DNA of 64,000 nt from Devosia sp. (lineage in GTDB: Bacteria; Pseudomonadota; Alphaproteobacteria; Rhizobiales; Devosiaceae), in the NCBI GenBank assembly GCA_017794705.1, contig CP051235.1, positions 931,010 through 995,009 of the forward strand, in the 5' to 3' direction. The position numbers and the translations under genes were made by a program. Below the pieces are notes generated by a model, which saw nothing but the letters and a program-made list of their open reading frames with translations, was not told the origin of the DNA and did no database searches. This document shows, in pieces, positions 46,636-55,343 of the stretch. Each line of letters starts with the position of its first letter. The stretch's first letter is position 1.

Positions 46636-48726
46636 ATGAGCTCAAAAATGCCCCCGCGCGCTGCGCAAAAGCAGCACTCCATCACCACGCACGGCCAGAC
46701 GCGACAGGATCCCTACTTCTGGTTGAGGGCCGAAAACTGGCAGGAAGTGATGCGGGATCCGGGGGTTCTGGACCCGGAAATCAAGGCGTATCTGGATGCG
46801 GAAAATGACTGGTTTGCTGCCGAATTCGGAGATCGGGCAGAACCGCTGAAGGACCGGATTTTCAGGGAGATCCGGGGGCGTATCAAAGAGGACGATTCCG
46901 GCGTACCCTCGCCTGACGGCCCCTATGCCTACAACTCCCGAATGGCAGAAGGTGAGCAATATCCGATACTTGTGCGGACTCCACGGGAGGGTGGCGACGA
47001 GGAAGTGCTGCTGGACTGCAACGTCGAGGCGGGGGACGGGTATTTCGGGTTCGGGGGCGGAATGCATGACCGATCGCACCGATTTCTGGCGTGGTCGGCG
47101 GACCGGAATGGGTCGGAATTTTATACGATTTACGTGCGCGATCTGACCACTTTGGAAGAAATCGACGACAAGATAGACAATTCTGCCGGAGGCATGGTCT
47201 GGTCGGCCGACAGCAGTTGCATCTACTACACGGAACTTGATGCCAATCATCGTCCTTTCAGGGTGCGCCGTCACGTCATGGGCACGCCGCAGGACAACGA
47301 CGAAGTGGTCTACACCGAGTCCGACGCCGGGTTCTTCGTCAATCTGGGCGAAACGCTCAGCGGCAACTACATCACCATCGAGTGCGGGGATCACCAGACG
47401 TCGGAAGTCTGGCTGATCGATGCGCATGCCGGAGGAAAGCCGTTCATCGTGTCCGAGCGCCAGGTGGGACGGGAATATGACGCCGACGAACGAGGTGGCG
47501 AGCTCTATATTCTGACGAATGCGGACGGCGCGGAGGACTTCAAGATCGTCACAGCGCCGGTTGAAGCACCGCAGGCAAAAAACTGGCGTGATCTGGTGCC
47601 GCACAATGCGGGCACGCTGATACTTTCCAGCTTTCTGATCAAGGATCACCTGATCCGGCTGGAACGCGAGAACGGCCTGCCGCGAATTGTGGTGCGTGAC
47701 CTTCGCACCGACATGGAAAGCCAGATTGCGTTTGATGAGCAGGCCTACTCATTGGGCGTTTCGCACGGGTATGAATTCGACACCCACGAGATCCGGTTCG
47801 TTTATTCCTCGCCAACCACGCCGCAACAAACGTTCGACTATGACGTGGTGACCGGTGAACGCTCCCTGCGCAAGACCCAGGAAGTGCCGTCCGGGCACAA
47901 TCCGGCCGACTTTGTCACCCGCCGGGTGATGGCCCCCGCGCCGGATGGCGAACTGGTGCCGGTAACGCTGCTAATGCGGCAAGGCACCAAGTTGGACGGG
48001 ACGGCACCGCTGCTCCTTTATGGCTACGGCGCCTACGGCATTGCAATGCCAGCAGGATTCTCGATCTCCAACCTGTCGCTGGTCGACCGTGGCATGATCT
48101 ACGCCGTTGCACACATCCGGGGCGGCAAGGACAAGGGCTATGCCTGGTATGCGAAGGGGCGGCGGGAGCACAAGTCGAACAGTTTCACCGACTTCATCGC
48201 CGCTGCGGAGTACCTGATCAACGAAAAGATTACGTCAAAGGGCAAGATCGTTGTCGAAGGGGGGTCTGCCGGCGGCATGCTGATGGGGGCCATCGCCAAC
48301 ATGCGTCCGGACCTGTTCGCCGGGATCATCGCGCAGGTTCCGTTCGTGGATGTGCTCAACACGATGCTGGATGACACATTGCCACTGACGCCGCCAGAGT
48401 GGCCCGAATGGGGCAATCCGCTGGCTTCACTCGAGGACTTCAACCGGATTGGCGCCTATTCCCCGTATGACAATGTCAAAGCGCAGGACTACCCGCCGAT
48501 TTTCGCGCTGGCCGGTCTGACCGATCCGCGCGTGACCTATTGGGAGCCGGCGAAATGGGTGGCCAAATTGCGGGCCACCAAGACCGACAGCAACCCGTTG
48601 TTCTTGAAGACCAACATGGAGGCCGGACATGGCGGTGCATCGGGTCGGTTTGACCGTCTGAAGGAAACCGCCCTGACCCACGCCTTTGCGCTCTGGGTCA
48701 CCGGTCTGGAACAAATCGAACCGTGA
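46636..48726 (+). CDS. ptrB: Oligopeptidase B-like S9A serine peptidase
   Basis: The 696-residue protein has a beta-propeller domain (about 75-420) and an alpha/beta-hydrolase domain. The nucleophile is in VEGGSAGGMLMGA; the catalytic His is in AGHGGASGRFDR; PLLLYGYGAYGIAM marks the oxyanion region. It hydrolyses short peptides after basic residues in the cytosol. It follows msrB by nine bases, so the two are probably co-transcribed. Confidence 0.95.
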   Translation: MSSKMPPRAAQKQHSITTHGQTRQDPYFWLRAENWQEVMRDPGVLDPEIKAYLDAENDWFAAEFGDRAEPLKDRIFREIRGRIKEDDSGVPSPDGPYAYNSRMAEGEQYPILVRTPREGGDEEVLLDCNVEAGDGYFGFGGGMHDRSHRFLAWSADRNGSEFYTIYVRDLTTLEEIDDKIDNSAGGMVWSADSSCIYYTELDANHRPFRVRRHVMGTPQDNDEVVYTESDAGFFVNLGETLSGNYITIECGDHQTSEVWLIDAHAGGKPFIVSERQVGREYDADERGGELYILTNADGAEDFKIVTAPVEAPQAKNWRDLVPHNAGTLILSSFLIKDHLIRLERENGLPRIVVRDLRTDMESQIAFDEQAYSLGVSHGYEFDTHEIRFVYSSPTTPQQTFDYDVVTGERSLRKTQEVPSGHNPADFVTRRVMAPAPDGELVPVTLLMRQGTKLDGTAPLLLYGYGAYGIAMPAGFSISNLSLVDRGMIYAVAHIRGGKDKGYAWYAKGRREHKSNSFTDFIAAAEYLINEKITSKGKIVVEGGSAGGMLMGAIANMRPDLFAGIIAQVPFVDVLNTMLDDTLPLTPPEWPEWGNPLASLEDFNRIGAYSPYDNVKAQDYPPIFALAGLTDPRVTYWEPAKWVAKLRATKTDSNPLFLKTNMEAGHGGASGRFDRLKETALTHAFALWVTGLEQIEP

Positions 48727-48819
48727 TCGCGTTGAGACATTTGAAATTCGGCCGCGAATTGCCTAAGTGTTTTTTATAAACCAATCGCGGAAATAAATAA
48801 TCACTCAAGGAGGCTCATC

Positions 48820-49416
48820 ATGGCTTTTGAACTGCCCGACCTGCCCTACGCGTATGACGCGCTGGACCCTTACATGTCCGCAGAAACGCTGGAATATCAC
48901 CACGACAAGCACCATCAGGCCTATGTCACCAATGGCAGCAAGCTGCTGGAAGGCTCCGGCCTCGAAGGCAAGAGCCTCGAGGAGGTGGTCAAAGGCTCGT
49001 TTGGCAAGAATGCCGGCCTGTTCAACAATGCCGCCCAGCACTACAACCACATTCACTTCTGGAAGTGGATGAAGCCGAATGGCGGCGGCTCCATTCCGGG
49101 CAATCTGGAATCAAAGATCAATTCTGACCTGGGTTCGGTATCCGCATTCCGCGACGCGTTTTTGAACGCGGGTGCCACGCAGTTCGGGTCCGGTTGGGCC
49201 TGGCTGACACTGAAGGATGGCAAGCTGGAAGTGACCAAGACCCCGAACGGCGAAAACCCGCTGGTTCACGGTGGCGTACCGCTTCTCGGGGTCGATGTCT
49301 GGGAGCACTCCTATTACATCGACTACCGCAATGCGCGTCCCAAATATCTCGAGGCGTTCTTCGACAATATGGTGAACTGGGAATACGTGGCAGAGCTTTA
49401 CGAAGCAGCCAGCTGA
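48820..49416 (+). CDS. sodB: Fe-type superoxide dismutase
   Basis: The 198-residue protein has metal ligands His27 (EYHHDKHHQAYV), His74 (AAQHYNHIHFW), Asp159 and His163 (LLGVDVWEHSYY). The AAQHYNHIHFWKWM pattern favours the Fe or cambialistic form. It removes superoxide in the cytosol. An AAGGAGG ribosome site precedes the ATG. A strong terminator follows, into whose T-tract a transposon has inserted. Confidence 0.96.
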   Translation: MAFELPDLPYAYDALDPYMSAETLEYHHDKHHQAYVTNGSKLLEGSGLEGKSLEEVVKGSFGKNAGLFNNAAQHYNHIHFWKWMKPNGGGSIPGNLESKINSDLGSVSAFRDAFLNAGATQFGSGWAWLTLKDGKLEVTKTPNGENPLVHGGVPLLGVDVWEHSYYIDYRNARPKYLEAFFDNMVNWEYVAELYEAAS

Positions 49417-49442
49417 CCGCGGCCCGATCCACAAACATTTTG

Positions 49443-49472
49443 AGCCCGGCCGTCATGGCCGGGCTTTTGTTT
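49443..49472 (+). terminator. Rho-independent terminator of sodB, abutting the transposon
   Basis: A perfect 9-bp GC-rich stem (49443-49451 and 49457-49465) has a five-base loop and is followed by TTTTGTTT. Those last eight bases are also the left copy of the transposon target duplication, so the element sits at the end of the T-tract. Confidence 0.92.
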
Positions 49473-49495
49473 GGGATCTATATACGTGTGTGACC
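49473..49495 (+). repeat. Left terminal inverted repeat of the transposon
   Basis: A 23-bp repeat that starts GGGAT and ends GTGTGACC. It matches the right end except at position 5. Confidence 0.88.
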
Positions 49496-49546
49496 TAGCA
49501 GCCTAAGTGTGTTACATTGCTTCCCGTTGATTTAGGGGGGCTCATA

Positions 49547-50095
49547 ATGGCCAAGGCAGTTACGGTAGTTGTCAATCAGGACGCAGACGAACAGGTAGTC
49601 CAATCACTTGCGACAATTCTCAGAAGAAATGACCCTCTATCGCGCCAATTGCGAGACTTTTCGCAAGCTATCCAAGAAGATCAGATACCCAATGGATTGC
49701 AGTTCCAGCCAAAGCCGGGACACATCCTGATTTGTCACTTTGGCTTAGGATTTCAGGTTCCAGAGAACGTGAAGACAAGGCCGGTGTTGGTTATCTCCCC
49801 ACATCAAAGGCAATGGACGAAACTTTGCTTGGTCGTCCCGATAAGCTCAAAGATTCCAGATGTCGTCCGCCCGTATCACTTCAAACTGCCCAAGGGCACT
49901 GTTCCGACGGCCAAGTATGAGGAATCCTGGCTTAAGGGTGACATGGTGGTGGCAGTTGGGGCGCACCGCCTCGATAGAATTAGAACCGCTGGCAGAAAGT
50001 ATGTTTCCCCGCGCGTTTCTGACGAAATTTTGAAGGAGGCGCGGCGTTGTGTCTTGCATTCTGGCGGAATGCATTCATTGACGATTCATTGGTAA
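49547..50095 (+). CDS. PemK/MazF-like protein carried by the transposon
   Basis: The protein has 182 residues from the ATG at 49547, behind a GGGGGG-rich ribosome site. Residues from about 65 on match the PemK/MazF endoribonuclease fold (KPGHILICHFG, KTRPVLVISPH, LVVPISSKIP). An extra ~65-residue N-terminal part (VTVVVNQDADEQVVQSLATI) is unlike standard MazF toxins, which are about 110 residues. No usual antitoxin gene precedes it. It may be a toxin with a built-in or unusual antidote, or a repurposed fold. Its promoter must lie in or near the left repeat. Confidence 0.78.
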   Translation: MAKAVTVVVNQDADEQVVQSLATILRRNDPLSRQLRDFSQAIQEDQIPNGLQFQPKPGHILICHFGLGFQVPENVKTRPVLVISPHQRQWTKLCLVVPISSKIPDVVRPYHFKLPKGTVPTAKYEESWLKGDMVVAVGAHRLDRIRTAGRKYVSPRVSDEILKEARRCVLHSGGMHSLTIHW

Positions 50096-50110
50096 GCGCC
50101 TATATTGCGA

Positions 50111-50196
50111 GTGTCACCGCGCAAGCGGGCTTGTAAGACCATCCTCGGATGGCAGGCCGAAACGCCGACGATAACAAGTTTGTTCCGGCCTTAGTC
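50111..50196 (+). ncRNA. Candidate structured RNA between the transposon passenger genes
   Basis: Three hairpins follow one another: CCGC-GCAA-GCGG (50117-50128, a GNRA tetraloop); CCATCC/GGATGG (50139-50152); and AGGCCG/CGGCCT (50154-50191) enclosing AACA/TGTT. A perfect terminator comes next. No open reading frame explains the stretch. It could be a small RNA or the structured 3' end of the PemK-like mRNA. Confidence 0.4.
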
Positions 50197-50220
50197 AAAA
50201 CCCCGCTCCGGCGGGGTTTT
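50197..50220. terminator. Bidirectional terminator inside the transposon
   Basis: AAAACCCCGC, four-base loop, GCGGGGTTTT: a perfect 10-bp stem with A and T runs on either side, so it can act on both strands. It lies between the converging PemK-like and winged-helix-like genes. Confidence 0.9.
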
Positions 50221-50223
50221 GTG

Positions 50224-51090
50224 TTATTCTACGGTTCGCATCATAGGGGATTTTTGCGGTTCATCCTCGTAAACAAGGTCGAAGCTATTTTCCAGAATCT
50301 GGAGCCATAGTTTTCTCTTGTCTTTAGCCCAAACGGTGCCTGCTTTGGGTAGGCGACTGATCAGGCCCGCAATGATCGGGTCAATGTCCGGAGGCAACTC
50401 ACCGCCGCCAGAACCGGAGCCGCTGTTTCCGGCGGACCGCCCATCCTGTTCGTCATTCCTCGGAGGTGGGGCTTGATCAGCCGGAGGCGCGGCTTTTGCG
50501 GACTCCATTCGTGGTTTGACCAAACGTTCCTTTCCGCTGTTGAAAAAACCCGCGTGTTGAGCTGAACGCTCAAACGCTTGCCGAGCACGGTCCGTTTGTT
50601 TGTGCGCCACGCCGAGCGCTTCCATCTCCCGTTCCAAAGCCTTTGCAGGTGGGAGATTGTGTCCGCGAAACTTCTCATAGATTTGCGAGTAAAGTGGCAC
50701 GGCAAGAAACGCAGTTGCACGAGCATCTGACTCTGTTTCAGGAGATACGATCTCCTTGCCTAGATCTGTAAGCTGAAATGCGCTTCGACCATCCTTTGAA
50801 ACCAGCCCGAAGACCCTAGCGGCAGAGGTCTTCTGTCGGAACGCCCCAGAAATCGTTTGGCCCAACTCGGCAGCAAGTTCATCTTGCTCACACGAGCCAA
50901 ACCCACAACGGTTATAAAGAGCCTTCGCCACCTCAATGGCCGCCTCAAGTGGCATGTAAGGGAAATCTACCGTTGAACGGTCCCTAGATTCCTTGCCACC
51001 AGAATCGCTAGCAGCGTTGGCTGCTTCCGAAAAATCTACCTTTTCGCCTGTCATGTAGACACTCCATGCCTTTTGACTAGGAGTGACCAT
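50224..51090 (-). CDS. Unrecognised winged-helix-like passenger protein
   Basis: The protein has 288 residues from the ATG at 51090; a TTG at 51114 would add eight. Residues about 45-120 look like a winged helix (MPLEAAIEVAKALYNRCGFG, LGQTISGAFRQKTSAARVFG, SAFQLTDLGKEIV). A helical part and a disordered Pro/Gly/Ser-rich linker (about 195-235) follow, then a short C-terminal helix pair. The pattern recalls DUF5343-like proteins found in defence and mobile contexts, but the match is by eye. It ends at the bidirectional terminator. Confidence 0.6.
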   Translation of the reverse strand: MVTPSQKAWSVYMTGEKVDFSEAANAASDSGGKESRDRSTVDFPYMPLEAAIEVAKALYNRCGFGSCEQDELAAELGQTISGAFRQKTSAARVFGLVSKDGRSAFQLTDLGKEIVSPETESDARATAFLAVPLYSQIYEKFRGHNLPPAKALEREMEALGVAHKQTDRARQAFERSAQHAGFFNSGKERLVKPRMESAKAAPPADQAPPPRNDEQDGRSAGNSGSGSGGGELPPDIDPIIAGLISRLPKAGTVWAKDKRKLWLQILENSFDLVYEDEPQKSPMMRTVE

Positions 51091-51287
51091 ACTCTCATTT
51101 TCCGGAGGTTGCAACTATCCGCATAACGAAGACGCAAAACGAAAAGGCGGCAGTTGTCAAAACCAAATCGGTTCGTTATACGGAATGGGCTGGATTCGTT
51201 CCGGCCAACAAATTTGCGAAGGACTTGCCATGAATAGGCCCTGATAGCCCCCAGCGTTTAGGTCATCGGCGTTGTGGGGGAGACTAA

Positions 51288-51328
51288 GAAAAAGCCGCCA
51301 GTCCCGTTTGCGGCGGGAAAGGCGGCTT
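51288..51328 (-). terminator. Terminator of the transposase transcript
   Basis: Outer stem AAGCCGCC/GGCGGCTT (51292-51299 and 51321-51328) with an inner CCCG/CGGG stem. On the minus strand it is followed by a TTTTT run. It lies downstream of the transposase and its coupled 55-residue gene. The surrounding 51091-51446 stretch holds no convincing gene. Confidence 0.7.
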
Positions 51329-51446
51329 AGATGGCCGAGCAATCGGAACGGGGCGGACCCCGCGATGTCTCGGCGCTCTCCAAGCCCTAGATTCGCACCT
51401 ATTCCGCCTCGTTTCAAGGCCCACAGCCAAAAAATGAGGTGACGCT

Positions 51447-51524
51447 ATGGTTTGGGTAAATCCTTACTTTCGCATCCGCTTTGGCCGCATTGAACACGTC
51501 ATTGGACACTGGCGCGGTCGCTAA
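51447..51524 (+). CDS. Possible 25-residue protein in the transposon
   Basis: ATG at 51447 follows GAGGTG by six bases and leads to a 25-codon frame ending TAA. The product, MVWVNPYFRIRFG...HVIGHWRGR, has a W-V-N-x-Y and G-H-W-R pattern that recalls tiny proteins with the YVRGHWR-type motif. It is opposite to the transposase operon. Evidence is short, so this is tentative. Confidence 0.35.
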   Translation: MVWVNPYFRIRFGRIEHVIGHWRGR

Positions 51525-51567
51525 CTAGGTGAGGCGGCGCTAGCCGCTTTGACCTTTCCCATCAACT

Positions 51568-51735
51568 TCACTTTTGCCGGATTGCCTTTTTGGCTTTCCG
51601 GCTTTTTTTTTGCTTGGCCCGCTCCATTCTCTGTTCGACTTCGTTCGGATTAGTTTGTGCGAACCGTGACAGGGCCTCGGAAAATTCCATGTCGATATGA
51701 AGTTTTGGCTCCAGCTTTCGCTTCTTGTCCGTCAT
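51568..51735 (-). CDS. 55-residue basic protein coupled to the transposase
   Basis: The ATG at 51735 overlaps the transposase TGA as ATGA. The product starts MTDKKRKLEPKLHIDMEFSE and ends in a highly basic tail (KQKKSRKAKKAIRQK). The tail is encoded through a run of nine A, a likely site for slippage. It is too small for routine gene calling but shares the transposase transcript. Possible DNA-binding accessory factor; no family recognised. Confidence 0.58.
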   Translation of the reverse strand: MTDKKRKLEPKLHIDMEFSEALSRFAQTNPNEVEQRMERAKQKKSRKAKKAIRQK

Positions 51736-52637
51736 GCGATCAGTGCCTTGTAAGTCGAGCGACCCTCAACGCAGTTGAACAGGTCGTTCATGCGTTCGCC
51801 TTCGCCCATGTCGATGCGGTTTTGACGCCATGCCATTTCGTCAACGTAGCGCCCCAAGTGTTTCGGGGATACCCAATGATGTATGCCGACGATCTGGCGT
51901 TTCAACAGCGCCCACATGCTTTCGATGCCATTCGTATGAATGGTGAAGTGACGGACGTACTCACCAGCCGAGTGATTGACTGAGTGGTGATAGTAGTCAC
52001 GGGACAGCGGGCCAAACGCCTTGTGCTCATCCGTCATTACCATTGAACCCTTCGCAACATTCCGGCCAATCACAGGCAACACAGTGTTGCCGCGCATATC
52101 CTTGACCACTTGCATGCGAAGCTCGCCATCACGGTTCTTCACGATTTCCTTGCCCGCACCGCCCTGAGAGTGGGGCCGACCCTTGTCCGCGTGTTTGTCC
52201 TTTTCCTTGCCGCCTAGATAGGTTTCGTCAATCTCATTCGTGACGCCGAGCGGCGCATTGAACGACTGAGTACAGGTCGCATGGCGCAGGCGGTGCAGCA
52301 AAAACCAGGCGCTTTTCTGAGTGATTTTCAGGTCTTTGGCCAACTGAGTGCTGGCAAAGCCTTTCTTGTGCGAAGTGATCAGCCAAATGGCCATAAACCA
52401 CTTACGAAGCGGCAGTTTTGTATCCGTGAAAATCGTGCCGACTTTGATCGAGAAACGCTTTTTGCAGTCACCGCACTTATGAGTGCGCTTGTCCGAGAAG
52501 TGATAAATCCGGTTGCCGTTGCAGTAGGGGCAGAACTCACCATCACGCCAGCGAATTGCAGTCAGATGGTCAATGCAGAACTGCTCATCTGGGAATGCAT
52601 CCATCAACTCAAACAGGTTATCAAACTGGGCAATCAT
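51732..52637 (-). CDS. IS1595-family (ISXO2-like) transposase
   Basis: The 301-residue protein has an N-terminal zinc ribbon (CPYCNGNRIYHF ... HKCGDCKKRFSIKVG) and a helix-turn-helix region. The ISXO2-type DDE nuclease motifs are NEIDETYLGGKEKD, VMTDEHKAFG and HTNGIESMWALLKR. All catalytic positions look intact, so the element may still move. Its ATG lies 65 bases inside the right inverted repeat, which probably contains the promoter. Confidence 0.95.
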   Translation of the reverse strand: MIAQFDNLFELMDAFPDEQFCIDHLTAIRWRDGEFCPYCNGNRIYHFSDKRTHKCGDCKKRFSIKVGTIFTDTKLPLRKWFMAIWLITSHKKGFASTQLAKDLKITQKSAWFLLHRLRHATCTQSFNAPLGVTNEIDETYLGGKEKDKHADKGRPHSQGGAGKEIVKNRDGELRMQVVKDMRGNTVLPVIGRNVAKGSMVMTDEHKAFGPLSRDYYHHSVNHSAGEYVRHFTIHTNGIESMWALLKRQIVGIHHWVSPKHLGRYVDEMAWRQNRIDMGEGERMNDLFNCVEGRSTYKALIA

Positions 52638-52702
52638 GGATTTCGGCCTTCGCTACATTGGCTGTATCCATGATCTAGGTGTTTGTGTGACCTAAGTCAA
52701 TG

Positions 52703-52725
52703 GGTCACACACGTATATAGGTCCC
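52703..52725 (-). repeat. Right terminal inverted repeat of the transposon
   Basis: Reverse complement of the left end with one mismatch in 23. Just inside, GTGTGACC (52685-52692) pairs with GGTCACAC (52703-52710), forming a subterminal palindrome that could be a transposase-binding site. Confidence 0.88.
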
Positions 52726-52763
52726 TTCTGTTTTGCACAGCCCGGCCAAAGTGATTGGCCACC

Positions 52764-53300
52764 ATGCCGTTCGGTGTTAACTTTTCGTTGACCATGGCGG
52801 GGGTGGCATTGGCGGACAAAAAGCCCAGCATTGCGGTAGTTACGAACGGTGCGGCACTCGGTTCGATCATCGAGATGATTCTGTCGCGGCATTCCGACGT
52901 CCGCGTCGTGCGCTGCCGGACCTATGAGCAGCTGGCCGACCACATGCGCATTGCGCCGGCCGATCTGATCATCTGCGATTATGAACAGGACGGCTGGACG
53001 GCCTCGGAAATGCTGGTCAACCTCAGACGGCACGCACCGGGCCGGCATTTTCGCTCGATTGTTCTGACCAGCTTTGTTTCGCACGAAGTCCGGCAGGGAT
53101 GCCGGTTTGCCCAGGTCGACGAAGTGGTCATCAAGCCCATGTCGCCGCTGTTCCTTCTGGAACGGGTAGAAGCCCATCTGGCCGAGGTGGACACCGCGGG
53201 CAATGCTGCGCTTGCGCCGCAACGGTCAAACGGTCGCGACAATGTTGTTCCGCTGTTTTCGGAACCTGATCGCACTGGCGGCCCCCGCGCAGTTCACTAA
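52764..53300 (+). CDS. Degenerate receiver-domain protein
   Basis: The protein has 178 residues from the ATG at 52764; ATG at 52794 is an alternative, and neither has a clear ribosome site. The fold is receiver-like: first strand SIAVVTN, phospho-acceptor Asp in LIICDYEQDG and Lys in VVIKPMSP. The first-strand acidic pair is replaced by Thr-Asn, so Mg2+ binding and phosphorylation are doubtful. There is no output domain. The transposon ends 38 bases upstream and may have cut off its native promoter. Confidence 0.75.
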   Translation: MPFGVNFSLTMAGVALADKKPSIAVVTNGAALGSIIEMILSRHSDVRVVRCRTYEQLADHMRIAPADLIICDYEQDGWTASEMLVNLRRHAPGRHFRSIVLTSFVSHEVRQGCRFAQVDEVVIKPMSPLFLLERVEAHLAEVDTAGNAALAPQRSNGRDNVVPLFSEPDRTGGPRAVH

Positions 53301-53313
53301 GCGAACGCCTGTC

Positions 53314-53859
53314 TCAACTGCGGTGACCGGTGATCCGCGAAACCTTGCTCCACAGATCCTCGACATTGTCTGCGAACTGGAAGTTGCGGTCCTTACCAGG
53401 TCTGCCAAAGGTCAACACGTCTGACACGAAACCCCGAAGCACTTCGAAATTGTGATGGTGATTCAAAAAAACTACCGGACGGACGTGATCTGAGCCGAGA
53501 GTGGCGTGAAACAGGCTGGAAATGCTCGCGAGAGATCCGGGAAGGATCACGTAGCAGTCGCACCTCGCCGCGAGCTGCCGCCACCGTTCGCGCGCGTCTG
53601 ATATCCGGACCAGAGGCACCGACGACAGTGCCCGCGGGGGAACAAAGACGTCGTCGGTAAAAATCTCCACCTCACCTCCCGCGGCCCGTGCGCTTGTGAT
53701 CGCGGGCAGCGGCAGTCCGCCTTCGGTCAAGGTGATCAGCCGGGCACCGCGCCGGGCAAAATAGGCGCCGGCCGAAGACATGACGGATGCGCGTTCGGCG
53801 TCGCCCGGCCCCTTGTCGGACGCAAAGAGTGCCACTGTCAGTCCCGGCTCCCTAGCCAT
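53314..53859 (-). CDS. LOG-like Rossmann-fold protein with altered active site
   Basis: The protein has 181 residues from the ATG at 53859, with a GGGAGGAG site. The layout (TVALFASDKGPGDAERASVM, GGEVEIFTDDVF, CDCYVILPGSLASISSLFHA) follows the lysine-decarboxylase-like/LOG family. The catalytic PGGxGTxxE motif is replaced by PGSLASISSL, and the Arg is missing. A cytokinin-riboside phosphorylase activity is therefore unlikely. It follows the HerA-like gene by 32 bases. Confidence 0.65.
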   Translation of the reverse strand: MAREPGLTVALFASDKGPGDAERASVMSSAGAYFARRGARLITLTEGGLPLPAITSARAAGGEVEIFTDDVFVPPRALSSVPLVRISDARERWRQLAARCDCYVILPGSLASISSLFHATLGSDHVRPVVFLNHHHNFEVLRGFVSDVLTFGRPGKDRNFQFADNVEDLWSKVSRITGHRS

Positions 53860-53891
53860 CACTCCTCCCGAGTTGCGCGCGTTCCGAACCG

Positions 53892-55343
53892 TCAACGGCC
53901 GCGGCGGAGGCTTCCCAAAATGCCTCGCACCAATGAATTCCCCAATTCCCGCGCCACAGTCCGGGCAAATTGCCTGAGCGCGGTTTCGGTAACCGTCTGA
54001 CGGCCGGAACTGCGGTTGTTGCTGGGCGTCGGGCGCAGTTTTTCCTCTTCGACCTGCCGGGTTTCAGCACGCCGTTTCAGGACCTCGAAAGCGGACTCGC
54101 GGTCCAGCACCTCATCGTACAGCCCATCTACCGGGCTCTCTGCAATGATCTGCTGGCGCTCGGCGGGCAGGATCGGCGCCATACGGGAGGAAGGTGGACG
54201 CATCATGGTGCGCCCGACCATGGACGGCACCCCTTTTGCCTCAAGCGTCGACACGAGCGCCTCGCCCACACCTAGCTGGGTAATGACCTCTTCGGTATCG
54301 AAATCGGGGTTGGGGCGGAATGTTTCCGCCGCGACGCGCACGGCTTTTTGTTCGCGCGGCGTGTAAGCGCGGAGGGCGTGCTGCACGCGATTGCCCAGCT
54401 GGGCCAGCACGGGCTCCGGCACGTCGGCCGGGTTCTGGGTGACGAAATAAACACCCACCCCTTTTGAGCGCACCAGTTTTACGACCTGTTCGACCTTGTC
54501 GAGCAGCACCTTGGGCGCTTCATCGAACAGGAGGTGTGCCTCGTCAAAGAAGAAGACCAGCTTGGGTTTGTCCGGATTGCCGACTTCGGGCAGTTCTTCG
54601 AAAAGTTCCGACAGGAGCCAAAGCAGGAAGGTTGCATAGAGCCTGGGGGTGGCCATCAATTCGTCCGCGGCCAGAACCGAAACGTAACCGCGACCGTCGG
54701 TATGCGTGCGCATGAGGTCAGCGATATCGAGCGCGCGTTCACCAAAGAACAGGTCGCCGCTTTGCTGCTCCAGCACCAGAAGTGCCCGCTGGATTGCGCC
54801 GATCGAGGCGGTCGAGACGTTGCCGTAACTGACCGAAATCTCTTTGGCGCGCTCGCCGATATCGGCCAAGAGGGACCGCAAGTCCTTCAGATCGAGCAGC
54901 AGCATGCCCTCGTCGTCGGCCAGCTTGAAGGCAATGTTCAACACACCCTCCTGGGTCGCATTGAGATCAAGCATGCGCGAGAAAAGCAGCGGGCCCATCT
55001 CGGAAACGGTGGTTCTGATGGGGTGGCCCTGGCGGCCAAACAGATCCCAGAAGATGACGGGAAAGGACCCGTACTCGTAATCGTCAAAGCCGATGTGTTT
55101 CGCCCGTTCGGCCAGAAAATCCTTGGGTTCGCCCGGCATGGCGATGCCGGACAGGTCGCCTTTCACGTCGGCGCAAAAAACCGGCACACCGGCCCGGGAG
55201 AACCCCTCGGCCATGATCTGCAGCGATACGGTTTTGCCCGTGCCCGTGGCACCGGTGATGAGGCCGTGCCGGTTGGCGTATTTCATCGCCAGGTATTCAG
55301 GCCGCGTGCTGGTGCCGAGATAAACGCTGTCGTCAACTAGCAT
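53892..55343 (-). CDS. HerA-like ATPase of the DUF853 (YjgR) family
   Basis: The protein has 483 residues from the ATG at 55343 (MLVDDSVYLGTSTRPEYL...). Walker A is GATGTGKTVSLQIMAEG and Walker B LVFFFDEAHLLF. DVKGDLSGIAMPGEP and TQNPADVPEPVLAQLGNR are family hallmarks. It is a HerA/FtsK-related ATPase of unknown physiological role, with no NurA partner nearby. The C-terminal end is basic. Confidence 0.92.
   Translation of the reverse strand: MLVDDSVYLGTSTRPEYLAMKYANRHGLITGATGTGKTVSLQIMAEGFSRAGVPVFCADVKGDLSGIAMPGEPKDFLAERAKHIGFDDYEYGSFPVIFWDLFGRQGHPIRTTVSEMGPLLFSRMLDLNATQEGVLNIAFKLADDEGMLLLDLKDLRSLLADIGERAKEISVSYGNVSTASIGAIQRALLVLEQQSGDLFFGERALDIADLMRTHTDGRGYVSVLAADELMATPRLYATFLLWLLSELFEELPEVGNPDKPKLVFFFDEAHLLFDEAPKVLLDKVEQVVKLVRSKGVGVYFVTQNPADVPEPVLAQLGNRVQHALRAYTPREQKAVRVAAETFRPNPDFDTEEVITQLGVGEALVSTLEAKGVPSMVGRTMMRPPSSRMAPILPAERQQIIAESPVDGLYDEVLDRESAFEVLKRRAETRQVEEEKLRPTPSNNRSSGRQTVTETALRQFARTVARELGNSLVRGILGSLRRGR

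Follow-up and report, generated by a model that had tools for sequence, protein, structure and literature searches.

A replaceable-cargo IS1595-family transposon in the sodB terminator of Devosia sp. and its candidate portable RNA–micropeptide–winged-helix unit

Sequence comparison revealed a 3,253-bp IS1595-family element at positions 49473-52725 of the window (the whole 64,000-nucleotide stretch of Devosia DNA analysed here), along with its relatives, the turnover of their cargo, the linkage of a structured RNA, a micropeptide and a protein partner within that cargo, and the occurrence of this unit off this type of transposon. We consider it highly probable, for the account as a whole, that this is a transporter IS: an IS1595 transposon with replaceable cargo, whose apparently decayed copy at sodB carries a portable RNA–peptide–winged-helix unit. 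The transposon belongs to a known, cargo-carrying IS1595 kind, and what is new is the cargo unit, which we found described nowhere. Our best guess is that this unit serves as a portable addiction or defence unit.

We propose that a fixed part, made up of the two ends, the transposase and a small translationally coupled gene (ORF2), inserts exchangeable cargo at 8-bp targets that are mostly rich in A+T, presumably by the usual IS1595 DDE chemistry. The window copy would have landed in the tail of the sodB terminator, breaking no gene, and has probably resided there long enough for its duplication and transposase to decay, perhaps with loss of mobility. Its cargo would comprise a gene with a PemK/MazF-type toxin domain but no partner, and the portable unit of a structured RNA leader, a 25-residue basic peptide and a divergent winged-helix gene, which may favour retention of its carrier through addiction, immunity or regulation.

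Features of the element and its flanks (window coordinates, strand)
49442..49472, +, sodB terminator hairpin and T-run; the hairpin (49442-49466) abuts the left duplication
49465-49472, +, left target duplication, TTTTGTTT, the last 8 bases of the sodB terminator T-run
49473..49495, +, left terminal inverted repeat (cargo/pemK end), GGGATCTATATACGTGTGTGACC
49547..50095, +, PemK/MazF-like toxin gene, 182 aa, toxin domain at residues 56-163 (PF02452, phrog_15698)
50196..50221, +, hairpin resembling a terminator, between pemK and cargo A, which converge (terminator scan)
50224..51054, -, cargo A gene, 276 aa from the ATG at 51054 (longest ORF from 51114), winged-helix protein with no Pfam family
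51185..51446, +, structured RNA leader of the micropeptide gene, with predicted limits; covariance model R1 matches 51281-51421
51447..51524, +, micropeptide gene, 25 aa, MVWVNPYFRIRFGRIEHVIGHWRGR, relative of phrog_21154
51568..51735, -, ORF2, 55 aa, with the motif LDMxFxEALxRF and an ATGA overlap with the transposase stop
51732..52637, -, IS1595-family transposase, 301 aa, with its DDE residues preserved and three residues missing from a conserved strand
52703..52725, -, right terminal inverted repeat (transposase end), complement of GGGACCTATATACGTGTGTGACC
52726..52733, +, right target duplication, TTCTGTTT

Element ends and insertion at sodB

The initial annotation had described 23-bp inverted repeats with one mismatch, an 8-bp near-duplication on either side and a target on the T-run of the sodB terminator, and all three were confirmed: the 23-bp repeats are identical at 22/23 positions and enclose the transposase, the flanking 8-mers TTTTGTTT and TTCTGTTT agree at 7/8, and the left duplication lies directly against the terminator hairpin. 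A genome search found the element to be single-copy in the one-contig 3.3-Mb genome, with no further copies or end-only derivatives, and the end motif occurred nowhere in that genome beyond the two ends with up to 3 mismatches allowed. The ends are not a product of chance, since they are the sole matches in the genome and similar ends occur in 31 relatives elsewhere. Many genomes of the same family have sodB close to the same response-regulator gene and lack the element, which indicates that the insertion is real; in 10 such genomes the stretch between the two genes was short and held no insertion, and in most of them it contained a terminator-like hairpin. The same genes in place without the repeats, or repeats unlinked to the transposase, had been named as evidence against a transposon, but relatives keep the flanking genes and lack the element, and the ends accompany the transposase in 31 other elements.

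Transposase and ORF2

Placement in the IS1595 family was supported by matches of the DDE_Tnp_IS1595 catalytic domain to PF12762 (E 7e-36) and NF033547 (E 1.7e-51) and of an N-terminal zinc ribbon to PF12760 (E 7.3e-8). The transposase had been called intact, which held for the DDE residues but not for the GKxIVLGxxxRDGELR stretch, where the window protein, unlike all 29 relatives aligned with it, is without three residues, making its intactness doubtful. Within the RNase-H fold, the deletion probably falls in one of the core strands. Taken with the imperfect (7/8) duplication and the single copy, it suggests that the window copy is old and perhaps immobile, which fits the earlier reading of the imperfect duplication as a sign of age. 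The window's genome also contains a second, distant IS1595 transposase with 36% identity (L019, G000:C1:1263215-1264117).

By a strict test, the ATGA overlap of ORF2 with the transposase stop is present in at least 17/32 elements. The ORF2 motif, which has a pN/pS of 0.24, was found in 27 elements by pattern and in others by alignment or BLAST, and in about a dozen elements it makes up the N-terminal end of a larger protein, for example of the Bro-N or RhuM type.

Related elements and cargo turnover

Scanning species genomes and viral contigs with the transposase gave 43 loci, to which whole-genome searches added more, and both ends were defined for 31 relatives. Related elements span 2.0-4.6 kb, with the transposase always near one end, a small ORF at the transposase 3' end and cargo making up the rest of the layout. 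The roughly 2.2 kb of non-transposase cargo reported initially was borne out, and this portion differs between elements with like ends; shared ends with changing cargo identify the element as a transporter IS, a known kind. Mapping cargo class onto the transposase tree required at least 13 changes (minimum 3; shuffled mean 15.4), and two relatives, L028 and L059, have cargo that is 77% identical against 58% for their transposases. This turnover and mismatch suggest that the fixed part exchanges its cargo readily. One relative (L035 5925-10525) contains a second IS1595-type transposase as well as a second, diverged copy of the micropeptide.

The passenger-gene precedent within IS1595 that the initial annotation had mentioned also proved apt. 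Transporter IS (tIS) of this family, for example ISNha5, with transcription-regulator passengers, are named in the literature (PMC11891212, citing Siguier et al. 2009). They resemble the window element in having an IS1595 transposase with a zinc ribbon, an 8-bp duplication and passengers beside a single transposase, whereas the passengers here include the RNA–micropeptide–winged-helix unit and a PemK/MazF domain. Neither ISNha5 nor ISNwi1 was named among the plasmid matches listed. The mobilizable IS1595-family elements tISCpe8 and MTnSag1 also carry cargo, which in tISCpe8 is lincomycin resistance (PMC5704250); they likewise have passenger genes moved by an IS1595 DDE transposase, but the window element has no visible mobilization gene. 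Our literature search found no paper on IS1595 elements with toxin-antitoxin, antirepressor or defence cargo.

PemK/MazF-like gene and cargo terminators

The first cargo gene shares the PF02452 domain of PemK/MazF type II toxins (E 2.1e-11, 44.4 bits, cut-off 23.1) and also matches phrog_15698 (E 2.4e-26). Unlike those type II systems, it has no adjoining antitoxin gene, with 51 bp between the end repeat and pemK on one side and the convergent cargo A gene downstream, and it has about 50 extra N-terminal residues that are unmatched by most database relatives. Homologues were detected in 10/198 other genomes of the order, and no convincing antitoxin was found just upstream of these 10 (the frame at L134 is not fully readable). 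The statement that the cargo has its own terminators held in part: one hairpin, at 50196-50221, is worth naming, but the terminator scan found no excess over shuffles (4 vs 4.7). A conserved small RNA in the stretch separating pemK from cargo A (50096-50223) was considered and rejected, as it was absent from every other locus.

The RNA leader, the micropeptide and their winged-helix partner

The micropeptide gene and its RNA leader were both missed at first reading of the cargo, and annotation mostly misses the unit because the product is only about 30 residues long. Relatives of the micropeptide conserve RxRFGRxE and HxR, with variable third positions and a core pN/pS of 0.26, and the peptide matches the PHROG family phrog_21154 (E 1.1e-6). 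PHROG 21154 is a phage micro-protein with no assigned function; the window peptide, by contrast, lacks annotation, follows a structured RNA leader, is paired with a winged-helix partner and is borne on a transposon. In a profile search, the micropeptide was found in 17/17 elements with an A- or B-type partner (a grouping based on weak sequence identity, 17-57%) and in 1/15 others, with a profile trained on many of the elements in which matches were then counted and a weak match in L027 (E 0.012). An earlier, narrower count of peptide and partner gave a Fisher p of 3e-6.

In the window, the partner of the micropeptide is the 276-aa cargo A protein, whose predicted structure has good confidence over residues 31-180. 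Only its first winged helix (residues 33-107) closely resembles MarR/DtxR-type folds (Z about 10 over about 68 residues); no close known structure was found (Foldseek best E 0.008), nor any match to cargo A in plasmids or viral contigs. Cargo B combines a coiled coil with a weak HARE-HTH match.

The leaders folded better than shuffled sequences in 13/13 cases, with a mean z of -4.0 compared with -0.4 in transposase control windows. In a six-sequence alignment, two-sided changes were present at 8/21 pairs against 1-3 in slid-pairing controls, and these six sequences, imperfectly aligned and with few two-sided changes, were used to build the covariance model R1, which also detected L040, outside its training set. 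Across 297 genomes, R1 recovered two strong sites beyond those already known (106.7 and 78.4 bits), both of which carry the peptide and an A/B-like partner, along with six weak matches that have no convincing peptide. One of the two strong sites lies amid integrase, primase/helicase and endolysin-type genes, away from any transposase of this type, which places it in a prophage-like region, and the other adjoins a different IS1595 transposase with other repeats. No Rfam family matched at the gathering score within 48000-54000, and R1 did not match the enterobacterial, Xanthomonas or phage leaders or L130-L132.

Wider peptide family and possible roles of the unit

Relatives of the micropeptide, unannotated or hypothetical, were also detected on plasmids of enterobacteria and Xanthomonas and in lambdoid phages, where their neighbours are different. 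One such neighbour is a candidate defence ATPase, PDC-S06, and in an alphaproteobacterium (L130 1501-3041) an AvcD-like deoxycytidylate deaminase (PADLOC dCTPase, E 2e-119) has a relative of the peptide downstream of it. AvcID is a type III toxin-antitoxin defence system (PMC10511110); the resemblance is a neighbourhood link in that one genome, and the window has no deaminase. Both the PDC-S06 and the deaminase associations are facts of neighbourhood, not proof of function. Three enterobacterial plasmids (L074, L075 and L076) contain the micropeptide in a compact block resembling a transcription unit, with differing neighbours, and in L076 a long stem pairs the 5' and 3' parts of the block (z -4.6).

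We tentatively suggest that these observations may reflect an undescribed portable system of two or three parts, for addiction or against phages, that is carried on IS1595 transposons and prophages, with the RxRFGRxE peptide occurring alone on enterobacterial plasmids and in lambdoid phages. If the unit is indeed an addiction or defence system, then a very small mobile element would be spreading such a system, and the peptide family in enterobacterial plasmids and phages would gain a function that can be tested.

The micropeptide might itself be the toxin of a two-part addiction unit, silenced by the leader and controlled by the winged-helix protein. A peptide that is short and basic and is preceded by a strongly structured leader, with a constant partner, many mobile carriers, and neighbours that include a dCTP-deaminase defence gene and the candidate defence ATPase, would suit such a role. 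Typical type I toxins are hydrophobic, though, and this peptide is not, and the winged-helix partner was not seen in plasmids and phages, so we regard a toxic peptide as doubtful.

It is unlikely that the RNA, peptide and winged-helix protein are instead the transposon's own regulator, controlling transposase or copy number and bringing no benefit as cargo. In 17 elements the set does adjoin ORF2 and the transposase, and its protein has a MarR/DtxR-like winged helix, but about a dozen like elements have no such unit, the unit also occurs in a prophage-like region without this transposase and beside a different IS1595 transposase, and the peptide has other neighbours where it occurs in plasmids and lambdoid phages. 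Less plausible still is an ordinary IS with accidental passengers, trapped by chance and functionless for element or host: cargo does vary greatly and is spread over the transposase tree almost at random, but the purifying selection on the peptide and ORF2, the conserved RNA structure and the recurrence of the unit on unrelated carriers make this quite improbable.

Target sites

The search for elements with like ends to which the initial annotation had pointed yielded the 31 relatives, 23 of which (23/31) have perfect 8-bp duplications. Duplications among the relatives average 77% A+T compared with 51% in their flanks, or 84% compared with 52% when one site-specific clade is left out. Specific targeting of transcription terminators, as the window copy in the sodB terminator tail might suggest, is very improbable and was rejected as a rule, since most of the other sites are AT-rich (averaging 0.84 outside the site-specific clade, against 0.52 in their flanks) and not visibly terminators; the sodB terminator is probably just one AT-rich target.

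Four relatives (L094, L096, L097 and L098) have an operator-like motif, ATATAAAGATATGTTTATATGTCAAG or similar, at a fixed distance before the left end, which in three of them is 14 nt. Their 8-bp duplications differ, which indicates independent and apparently site-specific insertions. In L094 and L098, the cargo encodes a proteasome-subunit-like protein and a trypsin-like protein in place of regulators.
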